Below, in pieces: positions 22,502-32,691 of a stretch of DNA of 52,762 nucleotides. This DNA is from Candidatus Aenigmatarchaeota archaeon. GTDB lineage: Archaea > Aenigmatarchaeota > Aenigmatarchaeia > QMZP01 > JAFGSV01. The translations under genes and the position numbers were made by a program. The stretch is taken from contig JAFGFG010000002.1 of NCBI GenBank assembly GCA_016931255.1, positions 1-52,762 of the forward strand, written 5' to 3'. Each line of letters begins with the position of its first letter. Position 1 is the first letter of the stretch. Below the pieces are notes generated by a model. It saw nothing but the letters and a program-made list of their open reading frames with translations, was not told the DNA's origin and did no database searches.

Positions 22502-24067
22502 TTAAAATTTAAAAAGAGATGCGAGCCATTCGATAAATGAATCATAAATTGTTTTCACTGGATTCAGATTGTCTTCGGTGCCCGCTGCCATGCCTGTTAT
22601 TGCAGCTGACGGTACGGATTCCGGTTCCTCAGCGGATTCCTGGGAAATGTCTTTCGTTGTATTCAGGACAACTGAAGGAGGTGGCTCCTTTAATTTGAGT
22701 GCCCTTGTTATGTCGTATTCCTTTCCGCTGTACTTCAGCCTTATTCTGTAGGTGTATATACCCGGAAGGGTATCATCAGGAAACATGCTTTCAAGTATTA
22801 TCTCCTTGGACGAATGTTCGGGAACCTCCATAATCCTCTGGTTCGCAGTCCATGTCTTCTTCCAGCCGTCCTCCCCGAGCCCGTATGTAAGGCACCTGCT
22901 TCCCTGATATGCATAAGAGTACACGATATATTCGCTCTCGTAAATGCCCGTGTTCTCAAGACGGACTTTGACATTGAAGGGCTCACCTGCATATGCATCC
23001 TCAGGAAATCCGGTGAGTTCAAACAGTTCCAGAACATCGTTCATTGTCACGCTACTGTCAGCGCAGTTGCTGGTCTTGATTTTGCATTCAGGACATTCTT
23101 CACAACAGAAAAGGGGATTATTCCCTTGGACTGTTATGTTGAACTTACCATATGGGATTTCCTTTCCAGTTACATCTTGGTACACCCTTACAAAGCCACT
23201 GTATTCACCATCAGCATACTCATCATTGCAGTTGTTCTTGAGCATAATTGGAATCTGAAGTGCAATCATCTGCATGGTGCTGGACGTTTCTAGTATCATC
23301 GCAGTATCACTTTCATTAAAATGACATGTTATGGTATTGCCTTTTTTGTCTTTGGTTAACCATTTTTGTTTGCCATTATCGTTATTGTGGTTTATGTAGG
23401 CTACTATTCTGAGCGTTGCAGGAGTTCCGTTTGTGAAAAGATAACATTCAATATATTCTACATCACCGAATCTTGCCATGTAGCTGTTGTCAGCAACAGT
23501 CAGCTCCATGTCACTCAGACTGGATTCGTAAGTAATATTATCTGCCATATTGTTATTTGTGATATTAGTCTCATTGACAAACTCTGTAGGCTTAGGACAG
23601 TCATTTGGATAGCCGGGAGTTGCGTTTTCTGTTTCAGTCCATGTGCCGTTGCAGAGCGACCATGAATTACCGACTACTGATGATGTGTAAGTCATGATAT
23701 CTAGAAGTGCAGTCCCGTTAAACATATAGACAGTATCACCGACATTATTCATCCACGGACTTCCGTAAGATAGGTTGATTACAGTAGAGTTGAGTGTGCC
23801 GAATACGCCCTCGAATAAATCCTGCTTATTTGCTACGATGATAAATGTGTCAGTTGTTAGACCATTCAACTGCTTAGAAAATGAAGAACTATCATTTATT
23901 TTGACATCCGAAAGATTAATAGACATATTACAGTTGTTGTGTATTTCCAGCCATTCATTTTTTGCATCTTCAGGATTGGGATGAATTTCAGTTATGCTTA
24001 TGCATGCAGAAACTGCTGGAAAAATCATCAAAATTGTAATGAATGCCGTCAGAAAGGCAATCCTCAT
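22502..24067 (-). CDS. secreted protein with lamin-tail domain
   Basis: The protein has 521 residues. It starts with a signal peptide (MRIAFLTAFITILMIFPAVS, with Cys 21 as a possible lipid-attachment site or the first mature residue). Residues about 22-130 form a lamin-tail (LTD) domain: ISITEIHPNPEDAKNEWLEI, then VANKQDLFEG and GDTVYMFNG. The centre has a CCEECPECKIKTSNC cluster. A beta-sandwich (EPFNVKVRLENTGIYESEYI) follows. The C-terminus has a Ser/Pro/Ala segment with ITGMAAG and then a short hydrophobic end (FIEWLASLFKF) that may anchor it. It is a cell-surface protein; the partner is unknown. Confidence 0.8.
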   Translation of the reverse strand: MRIAFLTAFITILMIFPAVSACISITEIHPNPEDAKNEWLEIHNNCNMSINLSDVKINDSSSFSKQLNGLTTDTFIIVANKQDLFEGVFGTLNSTVINLSYGSPWMNNVGDTVYMFNGTALLDIMTYTSSVVGNSWSLCNGTWTETENATPGYPNDCPKPTEFVNETNITNNNMADNITYESSLSDMELTVADNSYMARFGDVEYIECYLFTNGTPATLRIVAYINHNNDNGKQKWLTKDKKGNTITCHFNESDTAMILETSSTMQMIALQIPIMLKNNCNDEYADGEYSGFVRVYQDVTGKEIPYGKFNITVQGNNPLFCCEECPECKIKTSNCADSSVTMNDVLELFELTGFPEDAYAGEPFNVKVRLENTGIYESEYIVYSYAYQGSRCLTYGLGEDGWKKTWTANQRIMEVPEHSSKEIILESMFPDDTLPGIYTYRIRLKYSGKEYDITRALKLKEPPPSVVLNTTKDISQESAEEPESVPSAAITGMAAGTEDNLNPVKTIYDSFIEWLASLFKF

Positions 24068-24794: not shown

Positions 24795-25937
24795 ATGAAC
24801 ATCTTATTGATTTCCATCATAATGGTTTTCATAGTAGCTGCCGGAATTGTTACAATCAGCACTACAGGCTTTTTTTCAGCAACCGGTGACAGTGGTCAGG
24901 ATGCTGCTGCCGGAGACACCGGACCTGCTTTCAGGCTGAGTTTCGGTCCGGACGGAAGCGATGACAGCAATACGAAAGATGAAGTTCCGGCTGGTGGAGA
25001 TGAAAGTGACACAGTCTCGGCACCCGTGACAGGAGCTGTCACAGGAGGCGGAAGCTCCGGGGGAAGTTCAGGAGGAGGCTCGTCTACCACACCTGAAACA
25101 CCATGCACACTGGCAACATGCGATGCGCTTGGATATGAATGCGGGTCATGGAATGATGGCTGCGGCGGCACACTTGATTGCACCAACTGCGGTGAAGGAT
25201 TTACATGTAATTCTTATGGTTTATGTATAATCAATAATCCCCCGACAATTCAGGAAATTGGGATTTTAGATGTAGCAGAAGGAACAAAGCTTGAATTTAG
25301 CTTAATAGTTAGCGATGTCGACGGTGACAATGTGGTTGTTTCAGTCATTGGTGGTCCGGGTTCAATTTTATTTGGGAATGTGTATACATTCGATGCTCCG
25401 TGCAAGGATAATGCTGGCGAGAAAATGGAATATGTGACATTAGAAGCGGTTGATGAATATGGTGCATCATCGACTATGACATTCTATTTAAACATTTCCG
25501 ATAACCGTGCTTACGTTTCAATAGATCCACCTGTAAAGGATGTTTCCATTGGAGATACATTTTTCGTAAATGTCTCCATACAGACAGAGGAGCCTTTCTT
25601 GGGGATGGCTTTCGGACTCGAATACGATGATATGATTCTAAATTTCACTGATGCATCAGAAAGTATGACTTTTGGAGAATTCCTTCAAGTCGATGACATG
25701 TCAAAGCCTGTATTCTTTGGGTATGAAGGAAGAGTTGAGGGTTTCCCAATTCGCGAAGGAGAAGATAACGGTGTGTCAGGGAAAGGTACTCTGGTACATA
25801 TTTACTTTGATGCGATATTAGAAGGCGAAAGTGAACTGAATTTCCTCTTCACTGAAGCTGTGAAGTCAGATGGCGGTGAATTGGAAGAGATTTGCATCAT
25901 TACTGAAGGAGGTGTTGTCAATGTTTACAGTGTCTAG
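24795..25937 (+). CDS. membrane-anchored cohesin-domain surface protein
   Basis: The protein is 380 residues from the ATG at 24795. It has an N-terminal membrane anchor or signal (MNILLISIIMVFIVAAGIVT), an acidic linker and a Gly/Ser-rich linker (residues ~85-97). A Cys-rich motif (ECGSWNDGCGGTLDCTNCG), common in uncultured archaeal surface proteins, comes next. A cadherin-like domain follows (VAEGTKLEFSLIVSDVDGDN), then a C-terminal cohesin-like domain (about 240-375). The latter has VSIGDTFFVNVSIQTEEPF, GMAFGLEYDDMILNFT and GTLVHIYFDA. Cohesins bind dockerin domains on other proteins. The next gene, overlapping by 17 nt, encodes a dockerin. The domain call is by pattern. Confidence 0.8.
   Translation: MNILLISIIMVFIVAAGIVTISTTGFFSATGDSGQDAAAGDTGPAFRLSFGPDGSDDSNTKDEVPAGGDESDTVSAPVTGAVTGGGSSGGSSGGGSSTTPETPCTLATCDALGYECGSWNDGCGGTLDCTNCGEGFTCNSYGLCIINNPPTIQEIGILDVAEGTKLEFSLIVSDVDGDNVVVSVIGGPGSILFGNVYTFDAPCKDNAGEKMEYVTLEAVDEYGASSTMTFYLNISDNRAYVSIDPPVKDVSIGDTFFVNVSIQTEEPFLGMAFGLEYDDMILNFTDASESMTFGEFLQVDDMSKPVFFGYEGRVEGFPIREGEDNGVSGKGTLVHIYFDAILEGESELNFLFTEAVKSDGGELEEICIITEGGVVNVYSV
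25906..25914 (+). promoter_or_regulatory. Shine-Dalgarno of the dockerin protein
   Basis: AAGGAGGTG ends 6 nt before the ATG at 25921, inside the upstream cohesin gene. This near-perfect site settles the start over the upstream in-frame codon at 25870. Confidence 0.85.
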
Positions 25938-28533
25938 AATTTTGACAACGATAATTGTAGCACTATGCGTACTGGCAATAAACTCCGCCGGTGTCTATGC
26001 TGCAACGCTGACAAGTCTTGAAACCCTTGTGATAGAGAAGAACAGTAACATTCTGCTAACCAGTGACATCAACACGGACAACATGGTTGACAGGAGCGAT
26101 TTGATTGAGATATGTAAGATTTACAATACCGACATCACAGAAGATACAAAAAAAGGTGATGTCAATGGAGATTATGTAATAGACGTATCAGACATCGCAA
26201 TAGTGAGCACCGATTATGGAACTACATTATTTGCAAAGTCTTCAGTTTCTGAGGGCGAAACCGCTATATCAATTGAACCTTCATTCACAAGAATTGAACC
26301 GGAAAACGATTTTCAGATTGATGTTGATATAAACACAACAGAGTCAGTATATGCAATTTCAGTTACACTTTATTATGATACATCCATCATGAACTTCTCA
26401 GGCATCTCGGAGGGAAATTTCCTCAAAAAGGATGGACAGAAAACATATCCTGTAGTTGATGTTGACTACGAAAATGGGGCTGTTTTCTTTGATAGTACGC
26501 GATACGATACAATCTATGGAGTCAGTGGTGATGGCACAATTTTCATATTGACATTCGACTCCATTGCTGAAGGAACAGGGCAGATAGAAATAACTGATAT
26601 GCAGATTATTGACGAAAATATGTTTGCACTTCCAGACGAAAATATTTCGATATACAACGGCACTGTTGAGGTTAACATCAACGATAATCCTGTCATAACA
26701 CCGATAGGCAATAAAGTCATGCAGGAAGGCTCATTATTCTCCCTTGAAGTAGAGGCTACGGATGCAGATGGCGATGCAGTGACACTCAATCAGACATCCG
26801 GCCCCGGAACACTCATAGGGACAATATACAACTACACTGCTCCGTGGGACACTGACCATGATAATGAGATATACACAGTGGGCTTTGAAGCTCACGATGA
26901 TTACGGCGGTAGTGATACAGAAAGCTTCCAGCTAACCGTGAATGACATCAACAGGGACCCGACAGTCAATGCAATAGCAGACAAGAATGTCGATGAAGGC
27001 CAGACACTGACATTTGCAGTATCAGGCTCTGACCCTGAGTCAGACACATTATCCTATTCAGTTGTTTCAGGACCCGGCTCAATATTAGGAACCACATACA
27101 GCTATACGCCTGGATGGGATACGAACCACAGTGACGAAATAAGTTCAGTTGTCATTGAGGCTACTGACGGCCACGGCGGCTATGGCGAAACATCATTCCA
27201 GCTCAATGTAAGCGATGTCAACAGGGTTCCTTCGATAGACAGTTACATCCCAACGGACACAACGCCGGAAATGGATGAAGGCACATCTCTCTTTTTCAGC
27301 GTGACAGCATCTGACGGAGACTCGGACACATTGACATATGAATGGAAGCTGAATGGAACAATCGTCTCGTCCATTTCATCATACACTTACAATCCATCTT
27401 ATGATGATTCGGGCGTCTATACGGTCCTTGCGACAGTGTCAGACGGCTATGACACTGACACCCAGACATGGACAGTCACAGTTGACGACGTGGAGATAGA
27501 ATGCAGCTATGATTCCGAATGCGGGACTGACGATTATTTAGGGGAAACATTCTGTTCTGCAGATGAAGTCCACCAGACATACAGGACGTACACATGCAAC
27601 AATCCTGGTACGGGAGACTCCTACTGCTCCCATGCCGACACTGAGCAGACAATTGAAGTCTGCGGATACAAGTGCATTTCAGGTTCATGCGTTGCCAACG
27701 TGGCGCCGACAATAGACAGCTTCTTACCTTCATCAGACCCTACGACAAACGAGACTGCCAGTCAGGGATTCTCAATAACAGCATCCGACATCTATGGGGA
27801 CCCGCTCACGACCACATGGAAGCTCGACGATGCAGTCGTCGGCACTGGAACATCCTACAGCTATGTTCCGGACTATGATTCAGCAGGAATATACACAGTA
27901 CTTGCGACAGTATCTGACGGGGAGCTTTACGACACTCATTCATGGACGCTTACAGTGCTGAATGTAAACAGGGCACCAGAAATAAACAGCTATTTGCCAA
28001 CTGACACGACACCCGAGATAGACGAAGGCGAAAGCATCACATTCAGTGCATCCGCTTCAGATCCTGACGGTGACAGCGTTTCATATTCCTGGAAATTGGA
28101 GGGAGTCGAAGTCTCAACAGCCCAGTCGTTCAGCTATACTACAGGCTACAGCGATTCGGGAACATACAACGTGGCTTTGACAGTCTCAGACGGCAACGGC
28201 GGCACAGACACACAGTCATGGACGCTTACGGTTAATGATGTGGACACTATTGATGTCCAGCTTTATGATGGTGTAAACAATGGAGTCGAACTCCCAGCGG
28301 AACCTGTTTCAAGTGCAATAGAAGATGTGCTCTCGACAATAGACGGGAGTTATTGCCAAGTCCAAGTTTACGACGACGGTGAATGGAAAAAATACACACC
28401 TAATAACAGGCCAGGTGAATGCGACATCACTCTTCCTATCTGGTATCATGACACTCTGACGAAGCTTGACGAATCGCTTCCGTTCAACATAAGGATGATA
28501 GGTGACGCAGTGCTTACTGTGGACATAATTTAG
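25921..28533 (+). CDS. secreted dockerin-cohesin protein with Ig/cadherin-like repeats
   Basis: The protein is 870 residues from the ATG at 25921. Signal peptide: residues 1-28 (ending AGVYA). Dockerin-like module at about 49-100: two calcium loops, DINTDNMVDRSD and DVNGDYVIDVSD, spaced as in type I dockerins. Cohesin-like module at about 114-235 (AISIEPSFTRIEPENDFQID and AISVTLYYDTSIMNFSGIS). Five beta repeats follow: two cadherin-like (PVITPIGNKVMQEG, PTVNAIADKNVDEG) and three PKD/Ig-like with DSGVYTVLATVSDG. One Cys-rich insert (ECSYDSECGTDDY) separates the third and fourth. It has both halves of a cohesin-dockerin pair, so it could polymerise or bind the preceding protein. Confidence 0.85.
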   Translation: MFTVSRILTTIIVALCVLAINSAGVYAATLTSLETLVIEKNSNILLTSDINTDNMVDRSDLIEICKIYNTDITEDTKKGDVNGDYVIDVSDIAIVSTDYGTTLFAKSSVSEGETAISIEPSFTRIEPENDFQIDVDINTTESVYAISVTLYYDTSIMNFSGISEGNFLKKDGQKTYPVVDVDYENGAVFFDSTRYDTIYGVSGDGTIFILTFDSIAEGTGQIEITDMQIIDENMFALPDENISIYNGTVEVNINDNPVITPIGNKVMQEGSLFSLEVEATDADGDAVTLNQTSGPGTLIGTIYNYTAPWDTDHDNEIYTVGFEAHDDYGGSDTESFQLTVNDINRDPTVNAIADKNVDEGQTLTFAVSGSDPESDTLSYSVVSGPGSILGTTYSYTPGWDTNHSDEISSVVIEATDGHGGYGETSFQLNVSDVNRVPSIDSYIPTDTTPEMDEGTSLFFSVTASDGDSDTLTYEWKLNGTIVSSISSYTYNPSYDDSGVYTVLATVSDGYDTDTQTWTVTVDDVEIECSYDSECGTDDYLGETFCSADEVHQTYRTYTCNNPGTGDSYCSHADTEQTIEVCGYKCISGSCVANVAPTIDSFLPSSDPTTNETASQGFSITASDIYGDPLTTTWKLDDAVVGTGTSYSYVPDYDSAGIYTVLATVSDGELYDTHSWTLTVLNVNRAPEINSYLPTDTTPEIDEGESITFSASASDPDGDSVSYSWKLEGVEVSTAQSFSYTTGYSDSGTYNVALTVSDGNGGTDTQSWTLTVNDVDTIDVQLYDGVNNGVELPAEPVSSAIEDVLSTIDGSYCQVQVYDDGEWKKYTPNNRPGECDITLPIWYHDTLTKLDESLPFNIRMIGDAVLTVDII

Positions 28534-28541
28534 GTGATAAA

Positions 28542-29279
28542 ATGAAAAGATGGGCAAAGAACACATTGGTTGGAATTGGAGCATTAGGGCTCTCAGTGGG
28601 TGCCGCAGATTATGCTAGTGCACAGTCGTCCCCTGCAAGCTACTGGGGCAAAGCGTATGACAGGGGTGCAACTGTCGAAGACGGCACAGTTGTAAGGATT
28701 TATGATACAAATGGAACCGGGGACGGGACAGTGAACACAGACGATGACCAGCTCATCGGCGAAGCTACGACATTCACTTACAACAGTGAAAATGGGTGGT
28801 TCGACATTGATGCTGGTACTGATAACCCCGCAACACCGGAAGACGAGGGAGCGGTCACAGGGGCGAATACTTATTTCAGGCTCGTCAGGAAGAGCGACGG
28901 AAAAGAGGATTTGGCGTACACTGATGCCGACATGACGACACATATAGTAACTCACGAAGAACTCACAACCAAGGAGCAGAACGTGTATACAGACTTCGCG
29001 ACAGGTGTAGAACCGGTTGGCAGCAGCCGTGGACTGAAAGTCTATCCGAATCCATTCAACAGCGAACTCTTCATAGAGGACCCATTCCTGGTCGGCGAGA
29101 AAGAGTTCGAGGTATTTGACATCTCAGGGCGCAAGGTTCTTGAGGGCAGATACCAGTCAGGAGAACGGGTTTCAGTTGATGTTGACGGTATGGCCGGCGG
29201 CATTTACTTCATGAGGATAACATCCGGAGAAAATTCTGTCCAGACCAGAGTAGACGTAAAGAAGATAATCAAGCGATGA
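28542..29279 (+). CDS. secreted protein with type IX-secretion-like C-terminal sorting domain
   Basis: The protein has 245 residues. Signal peptide to about residue 27 (ASA/Q). The middle holds a calcium-loop-like sequence (DTNGTGDGTVNTDDD) in a beta domain. Residues about 165-242 read LKVYPNPFNSELFIED, then FEVFDISGRKVLEG, then VDGMAGGIYFMRITSG. This is the pattern of the C-terminal sorting domain (Por_Secre_tail type) used by the Bacteroidota type IX secretion system, or of the related FlgD-like Ig fold. It lies 8 bp after the dockerin gene on the same strand. Archaea normally lack an outer membrane, so the role of this domain is unclear and transfer from bacteria is possible. Confidence 0.8.
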   Translation: MKRWAKNTLVGIGALGLSVGAADYASAQSSPASYWGKAYDRGATVEDGTVVRIYDTNGTGDGTVNTDDDQLIGEATTFTYNSENGWFDIDAGTDNPATPEDEGAVTGANTYFRLVRKSDGKEDLAYTDADMTTHIVTHEELTTKEQNVYTDFATGVEPVGSSRGLKVYPNPFNSELFIEDPFLVGEKEFEVFDISGRKVLEGRYQSGERVSVDVDGMAGGIYFMRITSGENSVQTRVDVKKIIKR

Positions 29280-31097: not shown

Positions 31098-32033
31098 ATG
31101 GCTGATATTGGCAGAGGGACAGGCTTCGGAAAGACAATACTTTTTGGTGAACACTTTGCAGTCTATGGGCTGCCAGTGATAGCATCGGCGATAAGCGACC
31201 GGACCGTGGCAGATATTGTACCGTCAGAGAAATACGAGCTTATTGACAATCGCCCCGCCACGCCCGGCTACAAGGAGAAGAAGAAGGGCGAGATGGAGAG
31301 GTCCATGAAGCTGCTACTGGATTACATGAATATAGATGTAAAACGTGACCCAGTCAAAATAATATTGTCAGGAGATCTCTTCTGCACAAGCGGCGTTGGC
31401 GCAAGCGCTGCCATGGCCACTGCAATTGCCCGTGCGTTTTCTGACCTGTACGGCCTTGGCATTGGCGATGAAGAGATTAACCGCATCTCATATGAGGCCG
31501 AGAAGAGCACAGGCACACCTTCGGGTATAGACAATACGTGCTCGACCTTCGGCGGACTGATATGGTTCATCAGGGATATTGACAGTGGGAAGAATACAAT
31601 AGAACCCATAAAACTCGGGAAGCCTCTGGACATAGTGCTGGCCAACACCGGCATCTCTCAGGACACGAAGGCTGTCCTGTCAGACGTGAAGCGCAGCAAA
31701 GAAGCTGATCCGGGGAAGTATGAAGTAACATTCAGCAAATATGAAATGCTTGTAAAGGACGCAAGGAAAGCATTGGAAGCAGGCGATTTTGAAGCTGTTG
31801 CCAGGAACATTGACAAGAATCATGAACTTCTAAGAGAGATAAATGTCTCCTGCGATGAGGTAGAGAAAATCATATCAGCTGCAAAAGCCAGCGGTGCTCT
31901 GGCAGGAAAAATCACCGGTACAGGACGTGGAGGGTATGTCATACTTTTTACTCCCGGAAAAGAGCTTCAGGAAAAGGTTTCGAAAGCCGTGGAATCCATT
32001 GGATATATCACGATGAAGACTACAATTCTTTGA
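31098..32033 (+). CDS. mvk: mevalonate kinase
   Basis: The protein is 311 residues from the ATG at 31098. It is a GHMP kinase that phosphorylates mevalonate at the 5 position. Motif 1 is GFGKTILFGEHFAVYGLPVI, motif 2 (the ATP loop) is SGVGASAAMATAIARAF, with TPSGIDNTCSTFGGL carrying the catalytic Asp. Motif 3 is KITGTGRGGYVILF. It follows GGPP synthase by 5 nt. No phosphomevalonate kinase or diphosphomevalonate decarboxylase is nearby. Instead the cluster continues with the dehydratase and UbiD-type decarboxylase of the alternative archaeal route. Its 3' end overlaps the convergent Nudix-like gene by 14 bp. Confidence 0.95.
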   Translation: MADIGRGTGFGKTILFGEHFAVYGLPVIASAISDRTVADIVPSEKYELIDNRPATPGYKEKKKGEMERSMKLLLDYMNIDVKRDPVKIILSGDLFCTSGVGASAAMATAIARAFSDLYGLGIGDEEINRISYEAEKSTGTPSGIDNTCSTFGGLIWFIRDIDSGKNTIEPIKLGKPLDIVLANTGISQDTKAVLSDVKRSKEADPGKYEVTFSKYEMLVKDARKALEAGDFEAVARNIDKNHELLREINVSCDEVEKIISAAKASGALAGKITGTGRGGYVILFTPGKELQEKVSKAVESIGYITMKTTIL

Positions 32034-32691
32034 ATCCTTCAGGTGCGTTAAGCGGAGGCTTTACTTTCAATAGATGCCTGAGGGGGATATTCTCGATAAG
32101 CACATCACCTTTTCTGATTATGCCGTTCCCATTGATATGCTTATAATCAATACCCTCTATAAGTTCAAGAAGAATCTGGTTGAATGGTGAAAAGTCTTTC
32201 CATCCTTCCGTGAATATATATTCTGCATTCGTAAACTTCGGGTCGCCGCTTTCCGGGTCAACATATCTGGGAAGAGAATAGTCATTGGCTGTCAGGTGCC
32301 TGAGATTCGCGACATAACTTTTTCCTGAGTCGAGATATCTTGCCCATATATCTCCATTCGGCTCTAAGAATACTCCGATGTTATCGCGCTGCTTGAATAT
32401 GATATTGTCATTGAAATATAGGAATTTCCCGCAGTCTCCAGGCATCGTATCCACATCTGTCTCTTCCTTTGTTTCCCTTATGGCAGTTGAAAGAAAACCC
32501 GCACCGTATTCTCTCTGCCCTTCTGGGAGAGTTAAGTGTCCGTATCTCAGCGGGTCGTCTTCCTTCAATCTCCTGACATTGAGAATTCCATTGTTTCTGT
32601 TAACGTAAGCAGCAGCGACTGGTGTGAACTCTGCCTCCTCATCAAGGAATCCGGTACGAATCAGTGCTTCGGAGGCTTTGTATATTTTCAT
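32020..32691 (-). CDS. divergent Nudix-like protein inside the isoprenoid cluster
   Basis: The protein has 223 residues. The Nudix-like segment is GQREYGAGFLSTAIRETKEE followed by TDV. The REUXEE core is kept, but the first Glu of the consensus is Ala and the last Gly is Asp. The remainder (NNGILNVRRLKEDD, FLEPNGDIWARYLDSG) fits a Nudix fold with extra elements. Catalysis is uncertain because two signature positions differ. It is the only gene on the minus strand between mevalonate kinase and the UbiD-type gene. Hydrolysis of a prenyl diphosphate would fit, but that is speculation from position. Confidence 0.65.
   Translation of the reverse strand: MKIYKASEALIRTGFLDEEAEFTPVAAAYVNRNNGILNVRRLKEDDPLRYGHLTLPEGQREYGAGFLSTAIRETKEETDVDTMPGDCGKFLYFNDNIIFKQRDNIGVFLEPNGDIWARYLDSGKSYVANLRHLTANDYSLPRYVDPESGDPKFTNAEYIFTEGWKDFSPFNQILLELIEGIDYKHINGNGIIRKGDVLIENIPLRHLLKVKPPLNAPEGFKEL

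Follow-up and report, generated by a model that had tools for sequence, protein, structure and literature searches.

Three adjacent genes in this archaeal genome encode a cohesin protein (P1), a protein carrying both a dockerin and a cohesin (P2) and a further secreted protein (P3). P1 and P2 probably belong to a non-cellulosomal cohesin–dockerin surface display system (probability roughly 0.6), in which P1 would serve as anchor, P2 as adaptor and a MopE-motif protein, or further P2, as cargo. This is the most economical model to be read from the anatomy of the proteins, and from that anatomy we infer dockerin–cohesin pairing, calcium dependence, surface location and a display purpose. The window (the whole stretch of DNA analysed, 52,762 nucleotides) corresponds to contig C1 of a 93% complete genome of 929 kb. 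Genomes of the class are mostly 0.5–1.3 Mb, sizes that resemble those of DPANN archaea. The original prediction, made from the sequence alone, had placed cohesin and dockerin proteins side by side in an archaeon; the gene positions hold, and the archaeal markers minD_arch and pheT_arch both score over cut-off.

Anatomy of the gene cluster

The features of the cluster, and a second dockerin encoded on contig C2, are as follows.

24795..25937, + strand: P1, putatively membrane-anchored cohesin protein, 380 aa (open reading frame, start context)
24795..24872, + strand: P1 predicted N-terminal transmembrane helix (hydropathy peak 3.06)
25095..25232, + strand: P1 Cys-rich module after a Ser/Gly linker (read from the sequence; similar module in the P1 of relative G003)
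25233..25490, + strand: P1 Big_9-like Ig domain (PF17963, 20.8 bits, below the cut-off of 23.6)
25536..25928, + strand: P1 cohesin (profile built without P1, fold match)
25908..25914, + strand: P2 Shine–Dalgarno-like GGAGGTG (position within 1–2 nt)
25921..28533, + strand: P2, secreted dockerin–cohesin–Ig protein, putative adaptor, 870 aa (open reading frame, Shine–Dalgarno, orthologues)
25921..26004, + strand: P2 predicted signal peptide, cleavage site approximate (hydropathy, sequence)
26053..26217, + strand: P2 dockerin, calcium loops 26065–26100 and 26158–26193, both intact
26287..26676, + strand: P2 cohesin (Pfam over cut-off; order profile, 139.9 bits; fold search)
26677..27492, + strand: P2 Ig/PKD repeats 1–3 (PF17963, PF18911; boundaries by eye)
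27493..27690, + strand: P2 Cys-rich module (55% identity to a stretch of L051 in G006; present in surface proteins of relatives)
27691..28242, + strand: P2 Ig/PKD repeats 4–5 (PF17963, PF18911; boundaries by eye)
28243..28530, + strand: P2 C-terminal domain, kept in G001 and G002
28542..29279, + strand: P3, secreted protein with a T9SS-like C-terminal sorting domain at 29040–29249 (PF18962, TIGR04183)
G000:C2:179570-179785, − strand: dockerin of the MopE-motif protein (dockerin profile)

The likely start of P1 is the ATG at 24795, with GTGAT upstream. Pfam PF00963 gives no match over the cut-off to the P1 cohesin in either the genome search or the whole-protein scan, but a profile seeded with cohesins of relatives, including P2 and leaving P1 out, matches it at an iE of 2.5e-17. 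With P1 included in the profile, the genome search gives 104.9 bits. An AlphaFold2 model of the domain (pLDDT 80) finds cohesins as its best PDB matches, with a TM of 0.74 and an E of 9.3e-7 to 2XDH of Archaeoglobus fulgidus in the fold search, in keeping with the jelly-roll of solved cohesins. P1 does end in a cohesin, as had been predicted. A membrane anchor was also proposed and is likely, given the N-terminal helix. The P1 of G012 has approximately 75 residues ahead of this helix, which speaks for an anchor that stays uncleaved, though in the present species the helix may instead be a signal peptide that is removed. The combination of N-terminal helix and C-terminal cohesin is common to P1 proteins of several families. 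P1-type proteins from several families (24795–25937, L033 7046, L035 9181, L046 2004 and L042 8020) carry a short ITGFF-like motif after the N-terminal helix.

P2 overlaps P1 by 17 nt and most likely starts at the ATG at 25921 behind GGAGGTG, rather than at the longer open reading frame start at 25870. Its two 12-residue dockerin loops, DINTDNMVDRSD and DVNGDYVIDVSD, both follow the type I pattern D-x-N-x-D-x-x-x-[DN]-x-x-D. The dockerin scores 23.2 bits against PF00404 (cut-off 22.9, E 8e-5) in the genome search and 16.9 in the whole-protein scan; the cohesin scores 27.3 bits against PF00963 (cut-off 24.1, genome-wide E 2.1e-6) and 22.7, respectively. A two-loop dockerin together with a cohesin in the second protein is thus borne out, and the five Ig-type repeats foreseen correspond to five Big_9 stretches in the Pfam scan. 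Structure prediction, which had been proposed as a check, gives a weaker model of modest quality for P2, yet its fold-search matches are also cohesins. The dockerin half has low pLDDT, with its two helices placed as expected.

P3, absent from the original prediction, starts 8 nt past the end of P2 behind AGGTGAT. The overlapping genes and strong Shine–Dalgarno sequences suggest co-expression, and P1, P2 and P3 form an operon-like cluster that is probably co-transcribed. The sorting domain of P3 scores 47.7 bits against PF18962 and 46.2 against TIGR04183 (cut-off 23). Pfam and TIGR scans found no enzyme domains in P1–P3.

Genome inventory and spread among relatives

Sensitive order profiles identify exactly two convincing cohesins in the 93% complete genome, those of P1 and P2. 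A third, weak match (G000:C2:122593) was disregarded at an E of 0.05. A search for further dockerins, also suggested at the outset, located one in addition to that of P2 with sensitive profiles, at the C-terminus of a secreted MopE-motif protein of 723 aa on contig C2. One loop of this dockerin is canonical and the second has a Cys at position 9. The MopE match scores 24.6 against a Pfam cut-off of 27; in the G003 relative it reaches 31.2, over the cut-off. Relatives of the protein are present in G001, G002 and G003, and those in G002 (L039 3–812) and G001 (L037 1–681) have a C-terminal dockerin and a cohesin gene close by. The genome yielded no multi-cohesin scaffoldin, only the two single-cohesin proteins, and neither dockerin sits on a Pfam-recognised enzyme, in agreement with the view that this is not a typical cellulosome.

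A cohesin profile with 30 rows, including P1 and P2, matches solved cohesins including A. fulgidus 2XDH (2e-9), and a dockerin profile from relatives ranks cellulosomal dockerins first, before calmodulins. With the 30-row profile, cohesins are found at E ≤ 1e-5 in 11 of the 41 genomes of the order, the present one included; outside the order, 2 of 59 class genomes sampled have a Pfam match. The P1–P2 tandem occurs in G001, G003, G023 and G037, the last two belonging to family f5, and G012 (family f4) has a variant in which the dockerin is C-terminal. The cluster is syntenic within the genus. Its position is unchanged in G001, where it is flanked by a lamin-tail-domain (LTD) gene on one side and genes for KaiC, GGPPS and mevalonate kinase on the other. 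Synteny in G003 matches at the LTD side, while G002 has the end of P2, P3 and KaiC at a contig edge. P3 is syntenic in G001 and G002. A P1 orthologue is held by G003 and a positional counterpart by G001; P2 is 46–50% identical to its G001 and G003 orthologues.

Identity is 29–54% for P1, P2, P3 and the LTD protein, against 60–94% for most neighbouring genes; one other neighbour (32020–32691) is likewise low, at 34%. Such fast divergence fits what is often the habit of surface proteins. The cohesin tree shows P1 diverging further than any other anchor (branch 2.07). Anchor and adaptor cohesins separate within the genus and not across families, so the idea of two ancient classes was rejected. 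The LTD protein lies beside the cluster at 22502–24067 (− strand) and scores 32.5 bits, just below cut-off. It has 34% identity, a divergence rate about that of P1 and P2, and keeps an aromatic C-terminal tail.

Pfam was run on 14 dockerin-bearing proteins of relatives and on the cargo candidate. The relatives' proteins include a subtilase, two polysaccharide deacetylases, two AAT-type acylases, LamG and beta-helix proteins. The original statement that no enzyme is attached therefore holds for the present genome, and is limited to it, since dockerins of relatives sit on hydrolases. In two other genomes of the order (G023 and G006; L042, L051, L070 and L071), secreted proteins that end in a dockerin are encoded in large clusters, and some of these proteins have hydrolase domains.

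Proposed modes of assembly

In the model favoured here, the N-terminal helix would fix P1 in the cytoplasmic membrane, with the cohesin shown at the outer end of the protein. Calcium-dependent binding of its N-terminal dockerin would attach secreted P2 to P1, and the P2 cohesin would take the dockerin of the MopE-motif protein, or that of another P2 to give a short chain. The Ig/PKD repeats and C-terminal domain of P2 may form the displayed spacer and contact part, and P3 may be a co-encoded accessory surface protein. Against this count the Cys in the second loop of the cargo dockerin, the low-confidence model of the P2 dockerin and the possible cleavage of the P1 helix; the divergent P1 cohesin could also have lost binding.

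Alternatively, the dockerin of each P2 might bind the cohesin of the next, building long filaments with P1 as the cap at the membrane; these would serve adhesion or form an S-layer-like coat. The chaining of P2 originally predicted is possible in principle, as P2 carries both halves, and many relatives likewise combine cohesin and dockerin in a single protein. In A. fulgidus, where AF2375 also has a cohesin and the AF2375/AF2376 pair holds two cohesins and one dockerin, the single dockerin reportedly bound both cohesins, which counts in favour of filaments. However, the second dockerin protein is another candidate partner for the P2 cohesin, and the Pfam scan found no S-layer or SLH domain in P1–P3. 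Because that second dockerin is on a separate secreted protein, a complex of anchor, adaptor and cargo explains the findings no less well than a chain. Long filaments seem doubtful. Adhesion is not established and is one of several possibilities, as relatives carry dockerins on proteases, deacetylases and acylases; the host contact and S-layer role raised in the original prediction are speculative.

The rapid divergence of P1–P3 and the unusually long branch of the P1 cohesin could also mean that the modules survive as Ig-like spacers after the loss of docking. This is unlikely, as the P2 dockerin retains two intact calcium loops and the pair stays adjacent across families of the order. An enzyme complex resembling a cellulosome, which the subtilase, deacetylases and acylases of relatives would favour, is very improbable here and largely refuted for the present genome by the enzyme-free dockerins and the lack of a multi-cohesin scaffoldin noted above. 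Because related genomes attach dockerins to hydrolases, a general display system is the best description of the P1/P2 pair, and the order-wide occurrence of the modules on proteases, deacetylases and acylases points to an exchangeable platform for surface display. A bolder and rather improbable extension is that a host-associated small archaeon builds a calcium-clipped surface filament or contact complex from a minimal set of two cohesins and two dockerins, with cargo varying between related species and the T9SS-type tail put to use as a surface module of archaea.

Known systems and sorting-domain observations

The arrangement itself is already known from A. fulgidus, a non-cellulolytic archaeon in which the adjacent genes AF2375 and AF2376 (PDB 2XDH) likewise encode a dockerin and a cohesin, respectively; binding between these two domains is strong and specific (PMC9705933). 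Compared with that pair as described there, the dockerin of P2 is N-terminal whereas that of AF2375 is late (residues 432–506), and P2 also bears five Ig/PKD repeats; the third gene, P3, and a second dockerin protein encoded at another site are further differences. ANME archaea also have non-cellulosomal surface systems with dockerin and cohesin proteins, but their scaffoldin-like proteins bear as many as five cohesins, against one cohesin per protein here, and dockerins are attached to ABC-transporter binding proteins (PMC9012536). The type I/II cellulosome of C. thermocellum shares the module families and the logic of anchor, adaptor and cargo; unlike it, P1–P3 have no detected cellulase, carbohydrate-binding module or SLH domain, and there is no multi-cohesin scaffoldin.

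In the openly accessible literature no DPANN cohesin–dockerin system was found, nor any description of the present lineage, minimal parts list and probable cargo. With this cluster, non-cellulosomal cohesin–dockerin systems reach into a lineage of small-genome archaea with a poorly understood cell surface, and an inventory of two cohesins and two dockerins is small enough for all pairings to be tested in one binding experiment.

The tail of P3 is a T9SS type-A C-terminal sorting domain despite the archaeal host, T9SS having been described as confined to Bacteroidetes (PMC5445135). A search for SprA_N of the T9SS machinery gave no match in the genome, but none in control genomes either. Scans of viral contigs found nothing related to the cluster, and alignment of the P2 dockerin–cohesin region against genome contigs returned bacterial proteins only. 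The G001 protein L066 9146–10303 joins a dockerin to the same T9SS-type tail as P3, and a Poribacteria protein (L079 112–936) has part of a cohesin together with a dockerin and, judged by eye, a T9SS/FlgD-like C-terminal tail.
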